DNA from: a virus
Virus record (IMG/VR): IMGVR_UViG_3300025237_000001
Span: 62,001 to 126,000 of that record
Strand: one strand, 5' to 3'
DNA: 64,000 nucleotides
The stretch's first letter is position 1. Each line of letters begins with the position of its first letter. Shown one piece after another: positions 3,670-25,235 of this stretch. A program made the translations under genes and the position numbers. The notes below the pieces were generated by a model. The model was given only the letters and a program-made list of their open reading frames with translations. It searched no databases and was not told the origin of the DNA.

Positions 3670-4234
3670 TTGCTATGTGTTTTTCTTCCATAATAGCTAA
3701 TCTTACAGCGATTTTAAGTAAATCACCACCAGTTGTATTATACCACTCAGCTTGTGCGTCATCTAATTTATCAAAATTAACGATAGCTGCATATTCTTCT
3801 TCATTTAATTCAACACCATTAGTTAAAGCATAATAAGCTGAACGCTCACCAACTCTAGCTGATACTAAATCTTCATTGAAGTTATACATTTTCCCTTGGT
3901 TTTTTCTATGCCATTCTGAATCGTTGTAAACGTAAAGTTTTGCTTTACCAATTGAATGTAATAGAACTACTTTGAATAAAGACGCTTCAGACATCTTTAA
4001 GCCAGCAACTAAGTTATTCTTATTAATTAGGTAAGCGTGTTTCATAACTCTTAAGATATGGTCTATTAAACCACCCTCAAATGCGTTATGTAATTTTGTT
4101 GTTGTTGATGCTGGCGCACCAACAAAATCTAATCCTAAAAATGCTTGTAATTCAGGTGTTGCGAAACCATGCTTTTCCGCTGTTTCAAAATACTTTATTG
4201 CATTTGCAACAATTTTCTCTTTTGTTAAACTCAT
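3659..4234 (-). CDS. HD-superfamily-like protein with altered HD pair
   Basis: This 191-residue helical protein resembles HD phosphohydrolases. HNAFEGGLIDHILRVMKHA (49-67) supplies the first histidine helix, and VVLLHSIGKAKLY (89-101) lies where an H-D-x-GK motif is expected. The doublet reads H93-S94 rather than HD, so a metal-binding aspartate seems to be missing and catalysis may be lost or changed. Related phage proteins of this size are known beside nucleotide-metabolism genes. It overlaps dut downstream by 11 bases and the 135-residue gene upstream by 4. The fold call is from motif pattern only. Confidence 0.6.
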   Translation of the reverse strand: MSLTKEKIVANAIKYFETAEKHGFATPELQAFLGLDFVGAPASTTTKLHNAFEGGLIDHILRVMKHAYLINKNNLVAGLKMSEASLFKVVLLHSIGKAKLYVYNDSEWHRKNQGKMYNFNEDLVSARVGERSAYYALTNGVELNEEEYAAIVNFDKLDDAQAEWYNTTGGDLLKIAVRLAIMEEKHIANEH

Positions 4235-4638
4235 TTTGTTCTTTTTTTAATTTCTTCTAATACCTCTAATACTTTATCTCCAGAGTTAATTCCGCTAGTT
4301 GTCGTAAATCCATTTTCTAAAATTTTACTTTGCTCACGGTCTAATTTTACACCTTTGTTTAAAATACTACTTAATTTTTTACTAATTTTTATTGGTCTGA
4401 ATAACTTAAAACGTTTTTTTTTGTCCACAGCTAAAGCCTTTTCCTTTAAAGGCATTGCTGGGTCATTTGGTTTCCCATTAAACTCCATAAGGTATTTAAT
4501 CCTATCTTTGTTTTCTTCTAAAAAACTATAGAATTCTTCTTCCTTAGTTAAAAGGATTGATTCAGGGTCTTTAATATTAAAGAATGCTCTGTAAAGACCA
4601 ATAAAATAGTTTCCGATATTTCTAAAAATATTTTTCAT
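4231..4638 (-). CDS. Hypothetical protein, first gene of the dut/sugar operon
   Basis: This 135-residue basic protein begins MKNIFRNIGNYFIGLYRAFF, a short amphipathic or weakly hydrophobic N-terminus, followed by a lysine-rich charged region (KKKRFKLFRPIKISKKLSSI). I do not recognise a family. Its ATG at 4638 follows a TATAATTA element by 4 nt, making it the first gene of an early transcript that continues through dut to the glycosyltransferases. If transcription begins at the usual distance, the mRNA would be nearly leaderless. Peripheral membrane association is possible but not shown. Confidence 0.6.
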   Translation of the reverse strand: MKNIFRNIGNYFIGLYRAFFNIKDPESILLTKEEEFYSFLEENKDRIKYLMEFNGKPNDPAMPLKEKALAVDKKKRFKLFRPIKISKKLSSILNKGVKLDREQSKILENGFTTTSGINSGDKVLEVLEEIKKRTK

Positions 4639-4642
4639 AATG

Positions 4643-4673
4643 TAATTATACTACTTTTTAGTGTTAAATACAA
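4643..4673 (-). promoter_or_regulatory. Early-type promoter for the 4638-to-left operon
   Basis: Read on the minus strand, TTG (complement of 4671-4673), 20 nt, then TATAATTA (complement of 4643-4650), then CATT and the ATG at 4638. Spacing and sequence match the other early-type promoters in this window and the Bacteroidota -33 TTG / -7 TAnnTTTG pattern. It lies inside the 3' end of the upstream glycosyltransferase gene. Confidence 0.6.
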
Positions 4674-5889
4674 GTTTTTTGTAATATTTAGCACGATTTT
4701 CTGTAACTGTATTCAAAGAATATTTATCAGAAACAGTATTATATAAGTTATCACCAAATGTTTTAATCAATTCTGGGTTTTGGATTAACTTCTTTAGGTA
4801 TTGATACCATGATTTGTGATTTCTACGTGAATCAACTAAAAACCCATTTTTAGTTGTATCTAGTTCACCACCTTTTTGGTATGCACTTTCAATATCGATT
4901 GTGTAAGGACCAAAATTTTGTGCAATAATAGGTTTCTTGAAGAATCCACTTTCAATGACCTTTAACTGACTTTTAACTTTATTAAATGTGTTTTCTCCCA
5001 ATGGAGCTAATGATATATCAAATAGATTATAGTTAGTTGCGTAACTACTAATTGGTTTAGTCCATACTCTACGGTAAGGTTCGTTTTCAACCCCTACAAA
5101 TTCTTGAGTAGTAAATCTATTTAAATGTTCTTTATATTCAGGTGAGATAATTGAATAGTTGTTGGTGAATATTTTCTCATATTCAACCCACACACTTTCT
5201 TCTGGTTTGATATCTCTTTGACTTTGTTCACCAGTATCTTTATTAATAGTATTAATTTTACCACGAATATCAAATCCACAAACCACAAATTGAATCTTAT
5301 CTAATAACCCATCATTTTTTAGTTTTGATGACACACCATTTAAAATTCTTAAATCATTTAGGTGAGAAGAACCTCCTAACCATCCGATTCTAATTCTATC
5401 TGATTTTTCTGGTTTTGCTATAAATTGTTTTTCGGTAGGGTCAATAGAATTAGGGAAAACTGTAACGTTTTTATTAAACTTTCTAATTTCATCCGCAAAG
5501 ATTGGTGTTGTTGTGGTTACGTTTTCAGCACCTTTAATATTATTTAATATTTTAGTGTTTAAATCGTTTGTTTTTATAATGTGATATGCTGGATGTGTCA
5601 TATCGGGTAACCAATAATCATCTAAATCCATTACCGTTACAATTCCTAAACCTTTAATTTTATCTATTAAAGCTTCCATTTTATCATAATCAGTTAACGT
5701 TCTATGGTAGTGAATTAAATCATATTGCTTTAACCATTCATCATCATCTAAATTTGGTTCGTATTCAATATCCACATGAAAATCATCTGGGTATAATTTC
5801 TCTAAGTGTAAGTGTGGTTTGGTTGAACGGAAGAAAGAAACTCCTGTTCTGTCGCTTGGAACGACTAATATTTTTATTTTTTTACTCAT
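4651..5889 (-). CDS. GT-B glycosyltransferase (GT4-like)
   Basis: This 412-residue protein looks like a family 4 (GT-B) glycosyltransferase. The N-terminus KKIKILVVPSDRTGVSFFRS is a Rossmann-type opening; VMDLDDYW and FPNSID mark the first domain; RIRIGWLGGSSHLNDLRIL opens the second; and the segment VIESGFFKKPIIAQNFGPY occupies the place of the donor-binding glutamate loop. It is the third transferase-type gene in the left 6 kb. It is separated from the next gene upstream (5969) by a terminator and about 80 bases, so it probably has its own promoter, though I find only a weak TATACTTG element near 5915. Acceptor unknown. Confidence 0.78.
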   Translation of the reverse strand: MSKKIKILVVPSDRTGVSFFRSTKPHLHLEKLYPDDFHVDIEYEPNLDDDEWLKQYDLIHYHRTLTDYDKMEALIDKIKGLGIVTVMDLDDYWLPDMTHPAYHIIKTNDLNTKILNNIKGAENVTTTTPIFADEIRKFNKNVTVFPNSIDPTEKQFIAKPEKSDRIRIGWLGGSSHLNDLRILNGVSSKLKNDGLLDKIQFVVCGFDIRGKINTINKDTGEQSQRDIKPEESVWVEYEKIFTNNYSIISPEYKEHLNRFTTQEFVGVENEPYRRVWTKPISSYATNYNLFDISLAPLGENTFNKVKSQLKVIESGFFKKPIIAQNFGPYTIDIESAYQKGGELDTTKNGFLVDSRRNHKSWYQYLKKLIQNPELIKTFGDNLYNTVSDKYSLNTVTENRAKYYKKLVFNTKK

Positions 5890-5940
5890 TATTATTTAAT
5901 TTATACAAGTATAAAGAAAATTGTGATATAAGTAAATATA

Positions 5941-5963
5941 AAATCCCACAAAAAGTGGGATTT
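5941..5963 (-). terminator. Stem-loop terminator after the 8671-5969 cluster
   Basis: AAATCCCAC (5941-5949) and GTGGGATTT (5955-5963) form a perfect 9-bp stem with an A/T loop. In the minus direction it is followed by a T-rich stretch (TTATATTTACTT). It sits 6 bases past the stop of the 5969 gene. Confidence 0.7.
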
Positions 5964-5968
5964 TAATA

Positions 5969-6583
5969 TTATTTAGTTGTTTTTTTCGGGGAGACTTTAA
6001 TTTTACCTTCTTTTATTAAAGTAGTAATAGTTCTCTTAATCGTGTTCTCCGTTAAATTTTTAGTAAATGTTGTTGCCATAAACTGAAGTAACGCATCATT
6101 AATTTTTTTATCTAATTCAGCTTCAGTTAATGTGACTAACATCTTACCTTGTGAATTAACAAATGAATTTTCATTCATCTGTTGTTGTTGTGGGATTTGT
6201 TGAACCACTTGTCTAACTTGTTGTGCTTGTGGTTGTTGTTGATGTGCTTGAGGTCTAACTAAAGACTTAACATCTTCTAAATTAAACGTAGGTCCATTTC
6301 CACTAGCCATTTCAAATTGAGGCATTGGGTTTGAAGTCATTGCATCTTTGATAGCTTGAGGCATTTTACTAGTCTCTAAGTTTTTATATGAATTACCCAT
6401 TGGTCTAGTTGGGTTTCCTTGTGGTGCCGCACCATTTGGTACCGCATCTAATAGTTGCACATCTCCACCAGACATACCTTCTTGTATTCTAGCATGGTCC
6501 ACTTTGTAATTGGTATCACCTACCTTATCCATTACTTGTTTAGCACCACCAAGCATTGCCATTAATCTTTCGTTTTGGTCCAT
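5969..6583 (-). CDS. Hypothetical Q-rich protein, last gene of late minus cluster
   Basis: This 204-residue protein has a glutamine/alanine/valine-rich low-complexity stretch around residues 115-137 (repeated QPQAQQVRQVVQQIPQQQQ-like sequence) that links an N-terminal part to a C-terminal helical, basic tail (KRTITTLIKEGKIKVSPKKTTK). I recognise no family. It is the fifth gene of a minus-strand set read from a late-type promoter at 8686-8693, so a virion or assembly role is plausible but only by context. A terminator follows directly. Confidence 0.55.
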   Translation of the reverse strand: MDQNERLMAMLGGAKQVMDKVGDTNYKVDHARIQEGMSGGDVQLLDAVPNGAAPQGNPTRPMGNSYKNLETSKMPQAIKDAMTSNPMPQFEMASGNGPTFNLEDVKSLVRPQAHQQQPQAQQVRQVVQQIPQQQQMNENSFVNSQGKMLVTLTEAELDKKINDALLQFMATTFTKNLTENTIKRTITTLIKEGKIKVSPKKTTK

Positions 6584-6585
6584 TT

Positions 6586-7293
6586 TTAATCTATTGTTTC
6601 TTCATCTTCAACCTCACTCCCTACTTTAGGATATTCGGTATATTGATATTCTTTATAATTAGGTTGTTCTTTTTCAACATCCCTTTTATTGTAATTACTG
6701 GTATATTCATGGTCTTGATTAGTTGGATAATTTGGTTGTTGTTTCTTAGTATTATCTTCATAATCTTGACTACTTGAGTTATAGGTCACCCTATTTCTCG
6801 CTAATGGTTCGTTAGATTGTTTAGTATCTATATTACTTTGCCATCCAGTTCTATTTTTAGTCATTGTACCTTTCTTATCGGTCAATTTAGCGATATTTGC
6901 ATCTCCATTACTATTAGGTAATCCCAATGTAATATCTTGAGTTGGTTTAAATAACTCATCTGGAGGTAAATTAAGTTTCATACTTGTTTCACTCCAATTT
7001 GTAATGTGGTTAATAATAAAAACTTTGTAACGTTGTTCTTTACCTTGCTTAGTTCTTATATTAGGTCCATTTATTTGATAAATTCTAACCGCATCATTAC
7101 CTTTACTTGTTTTACCAATTGAGATAACTTGTCCATACCTCTTTGCACCATCCTTGTAACTTAAATTTACAGCATGTTTATTGGTTAACGCTTGTTGTAC
7201 ATCAGACAATGACGGTGTACCACCTTCATTAAGTTCTAATTTAACGCCCGTTTCCTCAAATATAACATCTTTATATAAATTGTAAAGTTTCAT
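6586..7293 (-). CDS. Hypothetical protein with WYL-like N-terminal segment
   Basis: Of 235 residues, about 30-125 resemble the core of a WYL-type small beta domain (AVNLSYKDGAKRYGQVISIG, then NDAVRIYQINGP, KVFIINHITNW and a LPPDELFKP end). WYL domains bind ligands or nucleic acids in bacterial regulators. There is no HTH here, so this would be a stand-alone version. Residues 150-235 are a hydrophilic, Asn/Gln/Tyr-rich, probably disordered tail ending in an acidic patch. It lies two bases from the next gene in the late minus cluster. The WYL resemblance is tentative. Confidence 0.5.
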   Translation of the reverse strand: MKLYNLYKDVIFEETGVKLELNEGGTPSLSDVQQALTNKHAVNLSYKDGAKRYGQVISIGKTSKGNDAVRIYQINGPNIRTKQGKEQRYKVFIINHITNWSETSMKLNLPPDELFKPTQDITLGLPNSNGDANIAKLTDKKGTMTKNRTGWQSNIDTKQSNEPLARNRVTYNSSSQDYEDNTKKQQPNYPTNQDHEYTSNYNKRDVEKEQPNYKEYQYTEYPKVGSEVEDEETID

Positions 7294-7309
7294 GAATAAA
7301 TATTTTTGT

Positions 7310-7636
7310 TTACTCTATTGTAACTTGTCCGATATTTCCAGATGTATCTGGGTGTCCATAACCATTACCATCATTATATTGATTGATGACCGTATTACCA
7401 ATTCTACCTGAACCAGCATAATTAGGGTTTCCATAAATATCTTGATGTGAACCACCGTTTGCGCTATCAAATGGCACGCCAGTACCTTTACCATGATTAG
7501 GTGTTGTTTCGTCACTCTTAGCATTTGTATGAGTAACTGAGTAATTATTAGCTGTCGCCTCATTGTTAAATGCATTATTAGTTAATAATTGTTGTCTTGC
7601 TGCAATTGCCGCTTCTTCTAATTTGTTAGATGCCAT
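7310..7636 (-). CDS. Hypothetical Gly/Asn-rich protein
   Basis: This 108-residue protein opens with a short helix (MASNKLEEAAIAARQQLLTN). The rest is Gly/Asn/Thr/His-rich and low in hydrophobics (for example GNPNYAGSGRIGNTVINQYN), so it is probably flexible. No family recognised. A second overlapping frame in the same region (7315-7575) is a shadow. It is closely packed between two genes of the late minus cluster (2 and 16 base gaps). Confidence 0.5.
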   Translation of the reverse strand: MASNKLEEAAIAARQQLLTNNAFNNEATANNYSVTHTNAKSDETTPNHGKGTGVPFDSANGGSHQDIYGNPNYAGSGRIGNTVINQYNDGNGYGHPDTSGNIGQVTIE

Positions 7637-7638
7637 TT

Positions 7639-8169
7639 TTATTTGTTTTTACTTTTATCCATATATTCTATCAAATATTTCATAGAATCTATTTCTTTCT
7701 TATAGTTTTCTTGATAAATAGCTGAGTTTGCCATAATGTTCTTAGCTTTACTACTTTTTGCTATATCTATCATCCCACCGTTAGCTCTGCTAAGGTTCGT
7801 ATTATCATTATCTTTTTCGTGGGTCTTAATAAATTGATTCTCTAACCCACCGTCCATTTTAGCTTTTTTAGATTGTAAAATACTATCTCTATTTGAACCA
7901 AGTGTTTTATCAACCCACATTCTAGTTACCTTACCACCAATTAACTTAAATTCTTCATCATTACCATCGCCTTTATAAGTATCGAAGTAATTCTTCAATC
8001 TCTTCATTTGTGAATATGATATTTTTCTATCTGCTACAATATCTTTAGCCCTCTTCAAACCCTTTGCTTGCTCAGTATCAGGATTGATAGCTGAAAGCCT
8101 TCGGTTGATTTGGTTAAATACATTATCAGGTACTTTAAAGTACTTATCGTTTAATTGACTATTAGGCAT
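7639..8169 (-). CDS. Hypothetical charged helical protein
   Basis: This 176-residue protein is rich in Lys, Asp and Asn, with predicted helices (for example FNQINRRLSAINPDTEQAKG and MKRLKNYFDTYKG), and no signal peptide or membrane segment. I do not recognise it. It overlaps the preceding gene by 8 bases, so the pair is probably translationally coupled. It belongs to the late minus cluster, whose products may be minor virion or assembly proteins. Confidence 0.5.
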   Translation of the reverse strand: MPNSQLNDKYFKVPDNVFNQINRRLSAINPDTEQAKGLKRAKDIVADRKISYSQMKRLKNYFDTYKGDGNDEEFKLIGGKVTRMWVDKTLGSNRDSILQSKKAKMDGGLENQFIKTHEKDNDNTNLSRANGGMIDIAKSSKAKNIMANSAIYQENYKKEIDSMKYLIEYMDKSKNK

Positions 8170-8671
8170 TTGGTTTTAAATTACTGTTAACAAAATTTAA
8201 TATTATATCTACCTTAGCTGGGTCTTTATCAAGCCCATTAGCTTTTACACTTTTCACTAAATCTAACATCTTTCTACTTACACCATCAGGTAATTCGTCT
8301 GTATCAATAACTGAATTATTATTATAATCAGACCCTAAATCCTCTAATAAAGCGATTGCTTTCTCTTTTGCAATCCTATTTTTGTTCTCAGAAGTGTTCC
8401 CAGACCTGTTCCCACCTACTGAATTTATATTATATAAATATCTATTTGGTTGAATAGCTTGTCTGGCAAAATCATCGGTAGTAGCTTGTGGTGAAGTCTT
8501 AATTTCACTGTTATTTACATTCTTTTCATCCCCAGATATAGGGGCACCCGTACCATTAACGAATTCATCCAACTCTTCCACCTCTTCAAGTTCAACTATT
8601 TCAGTTTCAACTTTCTTGGTTTTAACCTTTGGTTTATAGCTTTTTATGTCTTTCTTTTTTAAAGTTTGCAT
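8162..8671 (-). CDS. Hypothetical protein, first gene of late minus cluster
   Basis: This 169-residue protein has a basic N-terminus (MQTLKKKDIKSYKPKVKTKK) followed by an acidic run (EIVELEEVEELDEF) and a C-terminal helical region (KAIALLEDLGSDYNNNSVID). The YNNNSVIDTDELPDG segment looks like a calcium-loop-like DxxDxD variant but is too degenerate to claim. The ATG at 8671 lies 14 bases after a TATTTATA late-promoter element on the same strand. Function unknown. Confidence 0.55.
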   Translation of the reverse strand: MQTLKKKDIKSYKPKVKTKKVETEIVELEEVEELDEFVNGTGAPISGDEKNVNNSEIKTSPQATTDDFARQAIQPNRYLYNINSVGGNRSGNTSENKNRIAKEKAIALLEDLGSDYNNNSVIDTDELPDGVSRKMLDLVKSVKANGLDKDPAKVDIILNFVNSNLKPNA

Positions 8672-8685
8672 ATATTACGTTTATA

Positions 8686-8693
8686 TATAAATA
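8686..8693 (-). promoter_or_regulatory. Late promoter element TATTTATA (minus)
   Basis: The minus strand reads TATTTATA, 14 bases before the ATG at 8671. It is back to back with the plus-strand copy at 8711-8718, making a symmetrical divergent late promoter in a 60-base gap. Confidence 0.65.
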
Positions 8694-8710
8694 TAACTGA
8701 AAAGATTAAT

Positions 8711-20464: not shown

Positions 20465-20494
20465 AAAAAGAGACTCAAATTTGAGTCTCTTTTT
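20465..20494. terminator. Bidirectional terminator, perfect 30-bp palindrome
   Basis: AAAAAGAGACTCAAA (20465-20479) is followed at once by its exact reverse complement (20480-20494). The A-run on one side and T-run on the other serve both strands. It separates the convergent 19288 (plus) and polymerase (minus) genes, and it includes the last codons and stop of the polymerase gene (TGA at 20475-20477 on the minus strand). Confidence 0.85.
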
Positions 20495-23400
20495 CTTCTA
20501 GTACATGTTTGTAATCTTCGATATCTAATTCAATTCCAGCTAATTTTAATTCAGCTCTAATGAAACTAGCTTTAGCATCATCTTTAGCTTTCTTAGCTTC
20601 AACCCATATATGAGTTAACCAAGTCTCGAAAGTCTTATCTTTCTTATATTTAACTGTTGGGTAGAACGGTACTCGTTGCTTCGCCCAAGGTTCATACTTT
20701 AGTATATCAGTTACTTTACATAAATCAATATCCCAAAGTTTAGATTTAATATAAATATTTGGGGTTCCATTTTCATCATCGTGAACAACAAACTCACCCA
20801 TATTAGCGAATGGTTTAGGTATTTCACTACTTTCTTTCATCAATTGAATTTCATCCCATTCTAAACGCTTCATAATTTCAGTCGTTCTTTTTCTCTCATG
20901 AGCCATTCCTTCAATTCTAGCAATTCTCATACGCTCATGATAATCCGTTTGTATCCATTCCCAATTCATGTTTAATTCAACAAGGTTATTTGGTTCTTTA
21001 TTAACTCTAATCCAAAACTCAATTTCCTTATCTTCCATGTCCATTAACTCACTCATTGTATTTTGGTCACCATCTTTAAAAGCAGTACCTCTATCCATTT
21101 CAGTGTCTTTTTTTGTAAAGATTTTTCTTTCAGTTAATTCCATTTCTTTAGTTTCCTTGTTCTTAACCATGTCCATTAGAATTGCCTCCCTAATTTCAGG
21201 TTTGAAACAAACTAATAATGCGTGAATTCTATTATTGAAAGCCGCTAAATACTTTGGTACGTTATATTCGTCAGTTGTCAAATCAGGGTTATTCTCTATT
21301 TGGTCTGTTGGTATTACTTTACATTGAATCTTAACAGTTCTATCACCAGTTTCTTTATCAGTAATAACTTTAACATCACCATGAGATTTAACACTACCTA
21401 TGTTAACATAGTAAATTGTATCACCTAAATTAGATTTGATACCATCTTGCATTATCAATTCCATATGAGCTTTTCTAGCTTTAAATGAACCTGATTTTGT
21501 TTTGGTTTTCATATCTCTTAAATACGAAGACACTGTATCCTTAACATTAGACTTCGAAGCTATTTTAAGCAATGGAATTCTAAAATTGTAGATGTCATCT
21601 ACTGTCTTGTTATATAACTGAACGAACTTATCTCCTTCACCATTTAAAAGATGTTCAATTCCTATGGCTAAGAAGTCTTCAATATATCCTGGCATTTTAG
21701 ATGACTTAATCGTATTCCCAACCAATTTAATTTTACCATCAATTAAGTTAGCATAATTCTTTCTAGAGAAGTTGATGGTAGACTCACAGATATCATCAAT
21801 ATCTAGACCCATTCTATCAATCATAAATAATTCGTTGAACTCAGCAACAACTGCGTCTAATCCTACAAGAGTATTACCTTTATCAGGTTCAGTAAACCTA
21901 TGAGTACCAAGAGGCACATATGAGTTTTCATTGATATTATCGGGGATGGCAAAGTTAAATCCATCCGTATCCCCTACAAGAGGTCTGAAATCTAAATCCA
22001 TAAAGAATTTAACCATCAATCTCAAGTATTGTCTACCTCTACAGGTAGTTTCCTCAGCAATATTAGTATCTCCCCATGGAAATATATTGGGAGCACCCAT
22101 CGAACCAAAGAATGAATTCGCTAAAATCTTAATTGGTAATTGTTTCTTATCGTACATACTAACTAAAGCAGTCTCTTTTGCAATTTCCTCATTTAACATG
22201 TCTAAATCTTCTTTAGACATTGTATCACCAGTCTTTTCTTTCAATTCTTTTAAACCACTCAACACACCTTTATGTTTATTCATAAGGTTCTTGAATTTAT
22301 CCCTTGTATTTGCAATATACGTTAAGAAACCTTTCATCGCACCAGTAATATCAGTGTCAGGAAAAATATCGTGAGTAATCTTAATATTAGGGTATAAGGC
22401 AGCAAAATCCAATTTTGCGACATTTTTAGCATATCCAAGTTCTAATACTCTTGAGAGTCCACCTGTAAATGTTTTTCTTGGTTTTGTTGCTGGAACAGCT
22501 AATCTATTCTCGTATGACCAAGCTAACATAATTAATTTCCAAATACCAGCAGTACCCATCGTTGTTGAACGCATGTACGTTGTAGGAATAATCTTAGATA
22601 GTAAGAAAGATGCTTGATTGTAAACACCATCCACTTGTTCTGTTTCCCATAAATCATCTAATAAATAACGTCTGATAATAATATTACCTTTAACAACCTC
22701 ATAACCTTCTTTTAAGGGCTTTTCTTCACTTATTGGGTAGTAAGTACCATCAGTATCATTAAAAGCGTAATCAGTTACCTTATCGTTCCAAATTTCGAAT
22801 ATTTTATTACCTTCTACATACACACGATTGGCTTTGTTAAGTTTTGAGTATTTTGTAATATACTTTAACCCAGCACTTTTAATGTTTGAGTTAATCGCTT
22901 TGGCTCTACGTACTGCGTGCCAAACATCGATTATATTATAACCCCACATTGTAGTTTGCTTATAGAATTCACTTTCACCACCTAACTTGATGCTTTTGTC
23001 AACTCTTCTAATTTTAGAACCACCTTTCTTATCAAGTGTCTTTGCAGCAATTTCAATGTCTAATCCGATAATATCACATCTTGTGAATATGAAACTCCAG
23101 TCAAAGTTTTCAGAGTTATATCCAGCAATAGTGTCAGGTTTCAACGTATCTATAATGTCAAACATTTTAAGTATAGCGTAAGCTTCGAAATCTTTTAATT
23201 CTTGCTTAGTACCTTCTTGTGGAACTTCTATAATTTCTTCAAAACCTCTATTATCTTTAATTCCAATTTGGAATATCTTAGCATCTTTAAGTCTAATTGG
23301 TTCACCAGCAACATCAAACTCATATAATTTAGTTAAATCTTCTCCAGTTCCCATACGACTTTTAACCTCCAAAATATCTTCTTGTGATAGAAGTGTACCT

Positions 23401-23933
23401 TTAGGGTAAAGACCAGTTGTTTCTAAATCAAATTGTAATCTATGAATATCATTATAATCTTCCATTCCTTTGAACAAACGCTTTCCTGATGCGATTAAAT
23501 ATTGTTCCACTGGATTTATGGCTATGAACATACTTCTGTGACGTTCACCATAAACATCGATACCACCTTCTTTGAAGAAATTGAGTACTTTAGTATAAGA
23601 ACCTTTGGTTTTAGCCATGTATTTGTAACCCGAAGCCATTCTTTTAGGTTCGGCTTCATCTGGCATTGAAGATTTTAGTTTTGTAATTACGATGCCGTAT
23701 TTCTCAGCAGCTTTTTTGATAAGAGTTCGTTTACCGCCATACATTATTTTGGTAACTTCTTCTTTAAACCATATAAATGATGTAAGTGCATCTTTTGATA
23801 TGAACTTTCCTCTTTCAGGGTCATTGATTATAAGCGAAACTTCAGCACTCCCATAAGGAATCTCAACACCTACAATATATTTTTTTTGATTTCTACCTTC
23901 TAAAAACCTAGAAATTACATCCTCATTAATCAT
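20475..23933 (-). CDS. Family B DNA polymerase (T4 gp43-like)
   Basis: This is the replicative DNA polymerase with proofreading exonuclease. At 1152 residues it is longer than T4 gp43 (898). The 3'-5' exonuclease sites are FDLETTG with D169/E171 and GYNSENFDWSF with D278. The polymerase motifs are A, LDFAALYPNI (D509); B, KILANSFFGSMG (about 598-610, with FFG in place of the common YG); and C, GDTDG (D655/D657). The start ATG at 23933 is 19 bases downstream of an early-type -7 element. It lies alone in a minus-strand block facing the terminase-like gene and terminates in the 20465-20494 palindrome. Extra length is spread through the N-terminal region and the C-terminal ~350 residues. Confidence 0.96.
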   Translation of the reverse strand: MINEDVISRFLEGRNQKKYIVGVEIPYGSAEVSLIINDPERGKFISKDALTSFIWFKEEVTKIMYGGKRTLIKKAAEKYGIVITKLKSSMPDEAEPKRMASGYKYMAKTKGSYTKVLNFFKEGGIDVYGERHRSMFIAINPVEQYLIASGKRLFKGMEDYNDIHRLQFDLETTGLYPKGTLLSQEDILEVKSRMGTGEDLTKLYEFDVAGEPIRLKDAKIFQIGIKDNRGFEEIIEVPQEGTKQELKDFEAYAILKMFDIIDTLKPDTIAGYNSENFDWSFIFTRCDIIGLDIEIAAKTLDKKGGSKIRRVDKSIKLGGESEFYKQTTMWGYNIIDVWHAVRRAKAINSNIKSAGLKYITKYSKLNKANRVYVEGNKIFEIWNDKVTDYAFNDTDGTYYPISEEKPLKEGYEVVKGNIIIRRYLLDDLWETEQVDGVYNQASFLLSKIIPTTYMRSTTMGTAGIWKLIMLAWSYENRLAVPATKPRKTFTGGLSRVLELGYAKNVAKLDFAALYPNIKITHDIFPDTDITGAMKGFLTYIANTRDKFKNLMNKHKGVLSGLKELKEKTGDTMSKEDLDMLNEEIAKETALVSMYDKKQLPIKILANSFFGSMGAPNIFPWGDTNIAEETTCRGRQYLRLMVKFFMDLDFRPLVGDTDGFNFAIPDNINENSYVPLGTHRFTEPDKGNTLVGLDAVVAEFNELFMIDRMGLDIDDICESTINFSRKNYANLIDGKIKLVGNTIKSSKMPGYIEDFLAIGIEHLLNGEGDKFVQLYNKTVDDIYNFRIPLLKIASKSNVKDTVSSYLRDMKTKTKSGSFKARKAHMELIMQDGIKSNLGDTIYYVNIGSVKSHGDVKVITDKETGDRTVKIQCKVIPTDQIENNPDLTTDEYNVPKYLAAFNNRIHALLVCFKPEIREAILMDMVKNKETKEMELTERKIFTKKDTEMDRGTAFKDGDQNTMSELMDMEDKEIEFWIRVNKEPNNLVELNMNWEWIQTDYHERMRIARIEGMAHERKRTTEIMKRLEWDEIQLMKESSEIPKPFANMGEFVVHDDENGTPNIYIKSKLWDIDLCKVTDILKYEPWAKQRVPFYPTVKYKKDKTFETWLTHIWVEAKKAKDDAKASFIRAELKLAGIELDIEDYKHVLEEKETQI

Positions 23934-24029: not shown

Positions 24030-24054
24030 GTCATATTTATTTGTATGACAAAAG
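24030..24054 (+). promoter_or_regulatory. Candidate RHH operator, GTCATA-N8-TATGAC
   Basis: GTCATA (24030-24035) and TATGAC (24044-24049) form an inverted repeat spanning the ATG of the 24045 gene. The right half continues as GTATGACAAAAG (24043-24054), identical over 12 bases to 35559-35570 upstream of the other RHH gene. A further GTCATA lies at 23991. The terminase-like protein ends in an RHH domain, so autoregulation, and possibly control of the divergent polymerase promoter, is a reasonable inference. Confidence 0.45.
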
Positions 24055-24899
24055 ATATAAAATGTAACACAAATAATATCCATGATTTCATGGAAAATTA
24101 TAAATCAGGTTTTAATAAAATTAAATCAGAATATGAAGTATTTGAATACTACGATTTTGAAAGAGAAATTGTAAATTTGATTAATGATAATCGTTTTTCG
24201 ATTATATTAAAAGGTAGACAAGTTTTTGTGAGTACGATTTTAGCTACTTATACTGCTTGGCAAGTTTTAAATGGTAAACAGATTGCTTATTATAGTCATA
24301 ATAGACATATGTCTAAACATTTTTTAACTAAAGTAAGAGCGATATTAATGAGTTATGGTGCAGAATTTGAATGTGATAATCAAATTTACATTAAATTGAA
24401 AGGTTTAGGTTCGATAAAAGGTTTATGCACCCCAACAGAGTTTTGTAGTCACACATTTGATGAAATAATCTATGATGAAGCCGCATATATTAATAGGTTT
24501 AATGAAGCTTTAAGTATTGGGACTTCAATTATTGCAACAGGTGGTAAAATTATTTTAGCTTCTACACCTAATGGTCTGGAAAAATTTTTTTATACATGGC
24601 AAGGTAGTGAAGTTGGTGATAATCCTTTTAAAAGGATTAAAGTCACTTATAAAGATGTTCCTATATATGATGAAGCGTGGGCTGAAGAAATGAAAAGGAT
24701 TATGAATTATAATAAAAGGTGGATTGACCAAGAACTTCATGCTGAATTTATACCAGCATTAAAAAATAATAAAAATAAATTAATTCAATTTAGAATTGAT
24801 AAAGATTTGAATTTAAAATTGTTAGAAAAATTAATAGAGAAAGATGTTAATATTTCAACCTATATGCGAGATTTAATTCTCAAGGATGTGAATAATTAA
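24045..24899 (+). CDS. Terminase large-subunit-like ATPase fused to C-terminal RHH domain, no nuclease domain
   Basis: Residues about 37-240 match the ATPase half of gp17/TerL proteins: LKGRQVFVSTILATYTAW (55-72) at the Walker A place, IIYDEAAYI (141-149) as Walker B with D144/E145, ILASTPNG (170-177) as motif III, and WIDQELHAEFI (226-236) as the usual end of the domain. The Walker A glycine is replaced by F61. The RNase H-like nuclease domain expected next is absent. Instead KLIQFRIDKDLNLKLLEKLI ... STYMRDLILKDV (245-282) looks like a ribbon-helix-helix DNA-binding domain. It lies alone on the plus strand between minus-strand genes and its 3' end overlaps the next convergent gene by 27 bases. 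It might be a regulator, a packaging accessory or a decayed terminase. Confidence 0.72.
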   Translation: MTKDIKCNTNNIHDFMENYKSGFNKIKSEYEVFEYYDFEREIVNLINDNRFSIILKGRQVFVSTILATYTAWQVLNGKQIAYYSHNRHMSKHFLTKVRAILMSYGAEFECDNQIYIKLKGLGSIKGLCTPTEFCSHTFDEIIYDEAAYINRFNEALSIGTSIIATGGKIILASTPNGLEKFFYTWQGSEVGDNPFKRIKVTYKDVPIYDEAWAEEMKRIMNYNKRWIDQELHAEFIPALKNNKNKLIQFRIDKDLNLKLLEKLIEKDVNISTYMRDLILKDVNN

Positions 24900-25235
24900 T
24901 TCATCCCTTATTGGTACCAATAGGGTTCCCGAACCATCGTTAAAGATTATTTTGAATTCACCAACGAATGTGCCAGCTTTTCTAGTTTCTTTTGCTGAAA
25001 ATTGATATCCGATGAAATATTCTTCACCGTTACAATCACTTGAAGGGTCTTTAAGAATACATAAACCTTCCTTACCACCTATTCTTTTAACGCCAGTGCT
25101 AGTGTCGGTCATACAGAATGTAATTACAGAGTTTTGTATCATATCGTGGAACTTATCGTACTCATTTCTTCCATCGTTAATTAATTCCATCTTTAAGATA
25201 GGTAATGTTGCAGTTTTATTTATGTAAAAATCCAT
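24873..25235 (-). CDS. BppU-like Ig-fold baseplate/tail protein
   Basis: This 120-residue beta-rich protein has the run KTATLPILKMELINDGRNEYDKF, ITFCMTDTSTGVKRIGGKEG and then YFIGYQFSAKETRKAGTFVG EFKIIFNDGSGTLLVP. The last segment, ending D-x-G-T-x-x-x-P, resembles the Ig-like N-terminal domain of phage baseplate upper proteins (BppU_N). A late TATTTATA element lies on the minus strand 14 bases before its ATG, so it is expressed with structural genes although it sits next to glutaredoxin and helicase. Its end overlaps the convergent terminase-like gene by 27 bases. Function inferred. Confidence 0.55.
   Translation of the reverse strand: MDFYINKTATLPILKMELINDGRNEYDKFHDMIQNSVITFCMTDTSTGVKRIGGKEGLCILKDPSSDCNGEEYFIGYQFSAKETRKAGTFVGEFKIIFNDGSGTLLVPIRDELIIHILEN

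Follow-up and report, generated by a model that had tools for sequence, protein, structure and literature searches.

The window analysed here, a stretch of 64,000 nt from a 197-kb phage genome, contains on its plus strand a stand-alone gene (24045..24899) that encodes a protein of 284 aa plus stop, in which profile, sequence, and fold comparisons identified a TerL-like ATPase fused to a ribbon-helix-helix (RHH) tail. The left edge of the locus is formed by the divergent gene for DNA polymerase B (polB, 20475..23933, minus strand), and on the other side lies the gene of a conserved 120-aa protein (24873..25235, minus strand), whose 3' end shares 27 bp with that of the ATPase-RHH gene. This 120-aa protein, adjoining polB, gave no PHROG match, is kept in nearly all the relatives (E to 1e-76), and is a predicted core gene of this phage group. 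A promoter-like sequence, ATATTTAT (24033..24040), and two proposed operator boxes of the pattern TGTAnnACA, TGTATGACA (box 1, 24042..24050) and TGTAACACA (box 2, 24063..24071, 21 bp from box 1), are found on the plus strand at the start of the ATPase-RHH gene. No Rfam families or tRNA were detected in the 64,000-nt window.

The TerL-type ASCE ATPase domain, including its lid, occupies residues 12-236 (24078..24752), a region modelled with high confidence. All the TerL landmarks listed in the original prediction were found as described: an altered Walker A, KGRQVFVST, at residues 56-64 (24210..24236), with F61 at the position of an invariant Gly; a Walker B with the catalytic Glu, IIYDEA, at residues 141-146 (24465..24482); the motif III or coupling motif ASTPNG at residues 172-177 (24558..24575); and the QE..AEF motif at residues 229-235. 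A Pfam search returned no TerL match. The PHROG 2 profile (terminase large subunit) matched residues 26-236 (E=3e-16), T4 gp17 was matched by phmmer (E=4e-10), and Foldseek paired the AlphaFold model, built from a 24-row alignment (mean pLDDT 86), with the ATPase domain of T4 gp17 (E=1.3e-15, TM 0.71). These three matches argue that the similarity to TerL is not due to chance.

Searches of viral contigs identified four more full-length homologues, in L128 (298 aa), L010 (275-276 aa), L140 (297 aa), and L130 (298 aa, counted from its ATGGAT start), as well as a contig-end fragment, L274, which has the same tail, overlaps the 120-aa gene likewise, and can be considered a sixth member by its tail. 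All five full-length genes are flanked by polB and the 120-aa gene, share one orientation, and overlap the latter at their 3' ends. The full-length proteins are ~31-43% identical, versus 62-85% identity between the polB of the carriers and that of the window, which indicates that the ATPase-RHH gene evolves fast. Cellular genome contigs, searched with two short patterns, yielded no homologues.

No C-terminal RNase H-like nuclease domain follows the ATPase in the 284-aa protein; instead, the ORF ends inside its convergent neighbour with a tail (residues 246-283, 24780..24893) assigned to the RHH type from its predicted helices and from weak Pfam and fold matches. In the AlphaFold model, an extended stretch (the strand being unassigned in the monomer model) is followed by helices at residues 253-265 and 270-283, and modelling of the tail alone again gave an extended stretch and then two helices. 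In a fold search with the model of the tail, six of the seven PDB matches were RHH proteins (ParD, Arc twice, MatP, TacA3, and CopG), each of them weak on its own (E 4-9) since the query was of 46 aa. The tails of the relatives matched Pfam RHH families below threshold: CopG_antitoxin at 3e-4 (best score 21.8 bits versus a curated cut-off of 28), NikA-like at 2.5e-4 and 1.3e-3, and RHH_1 at 0.035 (14.5 versus 20.5 bits). For the tail of the window protein itself no RHH match was found in Pfam, and when the aligned tails were searched as a profile against the PDB, the matches were at chance level only.

The RHH tail is present in four of the five full-length members, where it reads [IL]Q[FV]R...N[IV]S.Y[MIL]R.LI[LI]KDVN, with the strand residues Q248 and R250, and also N269, S271, Y273, and R275, invariant across the four. 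In RHH proteins, the strand face is the one that contacts DNA, and we take Q248 and R250 to be placed on it. The conservation of residues 277-284 is partly forced and counts for little, because their codons lie on the strand opposite the 3' end of the 120-aa gene; without this overlap (residues 246-276), tails are 32-61% identical between members, versus 29-40% for the ATPase part. The exception is L130, in which an unrelated tail of ~60 residues (L130:3840-4024), with no match in Pfam or NCBIfam, is found instead. By convergent evidence, the tail of the 284-aa protein is of the RHH type, and it would be expected to form homodimers and to bind DNA in a sequence-specific manner.

The protein is thus almost certainly a TerL ATPase fold fused to an RHH tail, and the replacement of the nuclease domain by some 40 residues of RHH type, as originally claimed, was borne out by the model, the fold matches, and the tails of the relatives; none of the three results that would have contradicted the original prediction was obtained. 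A frameshifted or split TerL, or an interrupted nuclease, was ruled out, as the gene runs straight into the convergent 120-aa gene, and the four full-length homologues are of similar length, with the same architecture and the same 3' end. Moreover, the coexistence with a normal terminase that had been anticipated was confirmed by a separate full-length TerL of 621 aa, encoded outside the window in the same phage (G000 30344-32209), with the P-loop KPRQAGVST and a sequence that continues through the nuclease region.

T4 gp17 is the best match of the 284-aa protein in both sequence and fold, and the two share the ASCE ATPase fold with a lid, the Arg-Gln of the P-loop, the DE of Walker B, and the STPNG of motif III. 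Unlike T4 gp17 and other TerLs, the protein is devoid of a nuclease domain, has the P-loop Gly replaced by His or Phe within its family, bears an additional RHH tail, and is encoded beside polB, away from the packaging genes, in a genome with a separate full TerL. With the RHH repressors CopG, Arc, ParD, and RelB, it shares a strand-helix-helix of ~40 residues, the alternating Q/R of the strand, and the N-[IV]-S that opens helix B. In contrast to them, the RHH is located C-terminal to a large ATPase domain and scores under the Pfam gathering cut-offs.

Phylogenetic analysis placed the five full-length proteins in a single clade (support 100/100). The best tree showed a deeper link of the family with the group of own-type TerLs (97/92), and a grouping with compact TerLs was not rejected (p=0.08). 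The family did not arise by recent duplication of the TerL of the same phage, as its grouping with the nearest own-type TerLs was rejected (AU p=0.006).

Relics of the gene were detected in other phages of the group. In L012-type phages, the leader and an 18-codon relic in homologous register, MIKVLKCNTKNIHEFMEI with its stop, are joined to the 3' end of the gene, and the leader and start region match those of L128 (blastn 2e-36). L007-type phages retain a broken N-terminal relic, and in L231 the leader and start that remain are L130-like. Mutations affect the promoter motif and one of the boxes in the scars of L007 and L012; all three elements are retained in the four RHH carriers (4/4). The eight outer relatives inspected, with polB ~48-53% identical to that of L140, showed no trace of the gene, and the 69-185 bp that separate their polB from the 120-aa gene contain no promoter motif or box pair. 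A mobile insertion into an empty site was ruled out for the L007, L012, and L231 lineages, whose short intervals contain relics and represent scars left by deletion. A single gain followed by at least three losses would be the simplest history, and the distribution of these sequences points to a conserved but dispensable accessory gene.

At the catalytic site, the residue aligned with F61 is Gly in each of the 136 distinct TerLs covering this position, and a bulky one in the five family members, Phe in the window protein and His in the other four. In P-loop NTPases, a bulky residue at the Walker A glycine is expected to impair phosphate binding. Further changes were found in individual members: L010 has Asn in place of the catalytic Glu (Walker B Asp-Asn) and His in place of the P-loop Lys; in L130 the P-loop Gln is replaced by Ala and motif III reads STTNG; and in L140 motif III reads STPND. 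The loss of the Walker A Gly in 5/5 members, together with the absence of the catalytic Glu in L010, suggests that these proteins are most likely pseudo-ATPases and not a motor. Some residual nucleotide binding or hydrolysis may exist in the family, since Walker B Asp-Glu and motif III, present in the window protein, are retained by most members. T4 gp17 loses both its stimulated ATPase and packaging when predicted catalytic residues are mutated, and splitting of the protein at the linker abolishes translocation (PMC3012670). That the ATPase-RHH protein is not a working packaging motor is, in our judgement, very probable.

The motif ATATTTAT was located in the 80 nt preceding 14 of the 54 window genes, versus 1.15 expected (12-fold), including the tail sheath gene, and sits ~20-45 nt before starts (e.g., 8732, 15455, 19288, 35682, 42168, and 46195), as a probable phage promoter element judging from its distribution; polB does not have it. 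Just after this motif, two TGTAnnACA boxes separated by 19-21 bp were found at all four of the RHH gene starts that are visible, overlapping the first codons in the window and L128, and in non-coding sequence in L010 and L140. In 1.71 Mb of sequence, the box pair was found solely at these four starts, a count that is descriptive and not a formal test, as the motif was defined after inspection. For the window gene, the ATG at 24090 is a second candidate for the start of translation, besides 24045. The start of the RHH-less L130 gene has neither boxes nor promoter motif. The candidate boxes resemble the operator half-sites of the RHH repressor RelB of E. coli, TTGTAATGACAT and TTGTAATTACAA (PMC2812701). 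The tandem arrangement of these proposed boxes is also similar to that of RelB, and the boxes lie 19-21 bp apart, in contrast to the abutting half-sites of such repressors. Autoregulation of the gene through these boxes is probable, given their presence at 4/4 RHH gene starts and their absence before the RHH-less gene. A genome-wide regulon was rejected, as the pair occurs a single time in the 197-kb genome and no second perfect box or second pair was found in it; regulation of other genes is unsupported in the absence of a second strong operator.

On this basis, we propose that RHH dimers would bind the two boxes at the start of their own gene and repress its transcription, so that the protein would limit its own dose. 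The dead or crippled ATPase domain would retain TerL-type contacts, whether with the portal, TerL, the small terminase, or partners in late transcription; through these contacts, DNA packaging by the phage itself, or by a satellite or another phage infecting the same cell, would be lowered, delayed, or poisoned without pumping of DNA. To this explanation as a whole, in which an autoregulated pseudo-terminase tethered to DNA dampens or poisons the packaging of its own phage or of a competitor, we give somewhat less than an even chance. The role of packaging antagonist or modulator, taken separately, is put forward tentatively, and a self-limiting dead TerL subunit tethered to DNA that blocks or times packaging, possibly against competing phages or satellites, is more doubtful. 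Points against the pseudo-terminase explanation are that L130 keeps the gene although its RHH was lost or never present, that the boxes were defined after inspection and overlap coding sequence in the window and L128, and that most members retain Walker B Asp-Glu and motif III. A role in conflict, with a competing phage, a satellite, or a host sensor, fits better than a core role, because the gene is dispensable, fast-evolving, and self-limited. T4 gp17 contacts several partners, including the late sigma factor gp55 (PMC3012670), so the coupling between packaging and transcription would be another possible target.

Of the roles offered by the original prediction, that of a motor was disfavoured (Gly in 136/136 TerLs versus His/Phe in 5/5 members), and that of a regulator, in an autoregulated form, was the best supported. 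A protein acting mainly as a transcription regulator, with the TerL fold recycled as a sensor or dimerisation platform and the RHH controlling its own gene and perhaps polB, seems unlikely: the boxes do fall within the divergent polB interval and the RHH is conserved about as well as the body or better, but polB lacks the promoter motif and remains intact where the ATPase-RHH gene was lost. Quite unlikely is a decoy for host TerL sensors, in which the look-alike would occupy Avs-type STAND defence proteins without activating them. An Avs3-bound TerL (8dgc) among the fold matches shows that TerL is a known trigger, and a fast-evolving, repeatedly lost accessory gene would be in agreement with it; however, it leaves the RHH tail unexplained, and no anti-Avs precedent of such kind was found in the open-licence literature.

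The decay of catalytic residues and the repeated deletions could also correspond to a relict, with no present function, of a TerL duplicated long ago or gained horizontally. This we consider improbable, as five phages have preserved open frames of 275-298 aa with about 40% identity, with the RHH contact-type residues invariant and the boxes and promoter motif intact in the 4/4 RHH carriers. Even less probable is an active motor set by the RHH on specific DNA, which it would translocate or remodel: the Walker B DE, the P-loop Arg, and motif III are retained in most members, but the substituted P-loop Gly in 5/5, the two catalytic changes of L010, and the lack of a nuclease domain, considering the split gp17 (PMC3012670), argue against it. 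Finally, a built-in small-terminase function, with the RHH reading a pac-like site and the ATPase domain recruiting the real TerL, would agree with a tandem box pair found once per genome, but it is the least probable of all, as at least three related lineages have lost the gene by deletion and packaging is thus independent of it across the clade.

TerL is the packaging motor common to tailed phages and herpesviruses, and also a trigger of bacterial immunity. If the proposed pseudo-terminase exists, this motor would have a natural dominant-negative or decoy in a conserved TerL ATPase that has a broken P-loop, no nuclease, and a DNA-binding domain of its own, and the idea is directly testable on a small gene with its own predicted operator. 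No precedent of a stand-alone TerL ATPase or of a TerL-RHH fusion was found in the open-licence literature, nor of such a class of packaging antagonists in this literature and the sequence collections searched.

In a related phage group, L044 (IMG/VR 3300040770_000286) encodes at 3995-4906 a 303-aa TerL ATPase paralogue, with the motifs KYRQAGGST and IIDDAAY, which is also nuclease-less and altered in its catalytic site. It differs in being located directly upstream of a full-length TerL, in having no RHH tail, and in keeping the P-loop Gly, and it seems to be the consequence of an independent event, as it groups with own-type TerLs. In addition, the TerL of L185 (4956-5798) is interrupted after QECDC by an intein-like start, CLWGDSVVRV, so its nuclease part must lie further downstream. 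The helicase (969 aa; L012:446-3352) and polB (1514 aa; 4168-8709) of L012 contain in-frame inserts of ~350 aa, probably inteins, within conserved stretches, and L013/L015 have equivalents.
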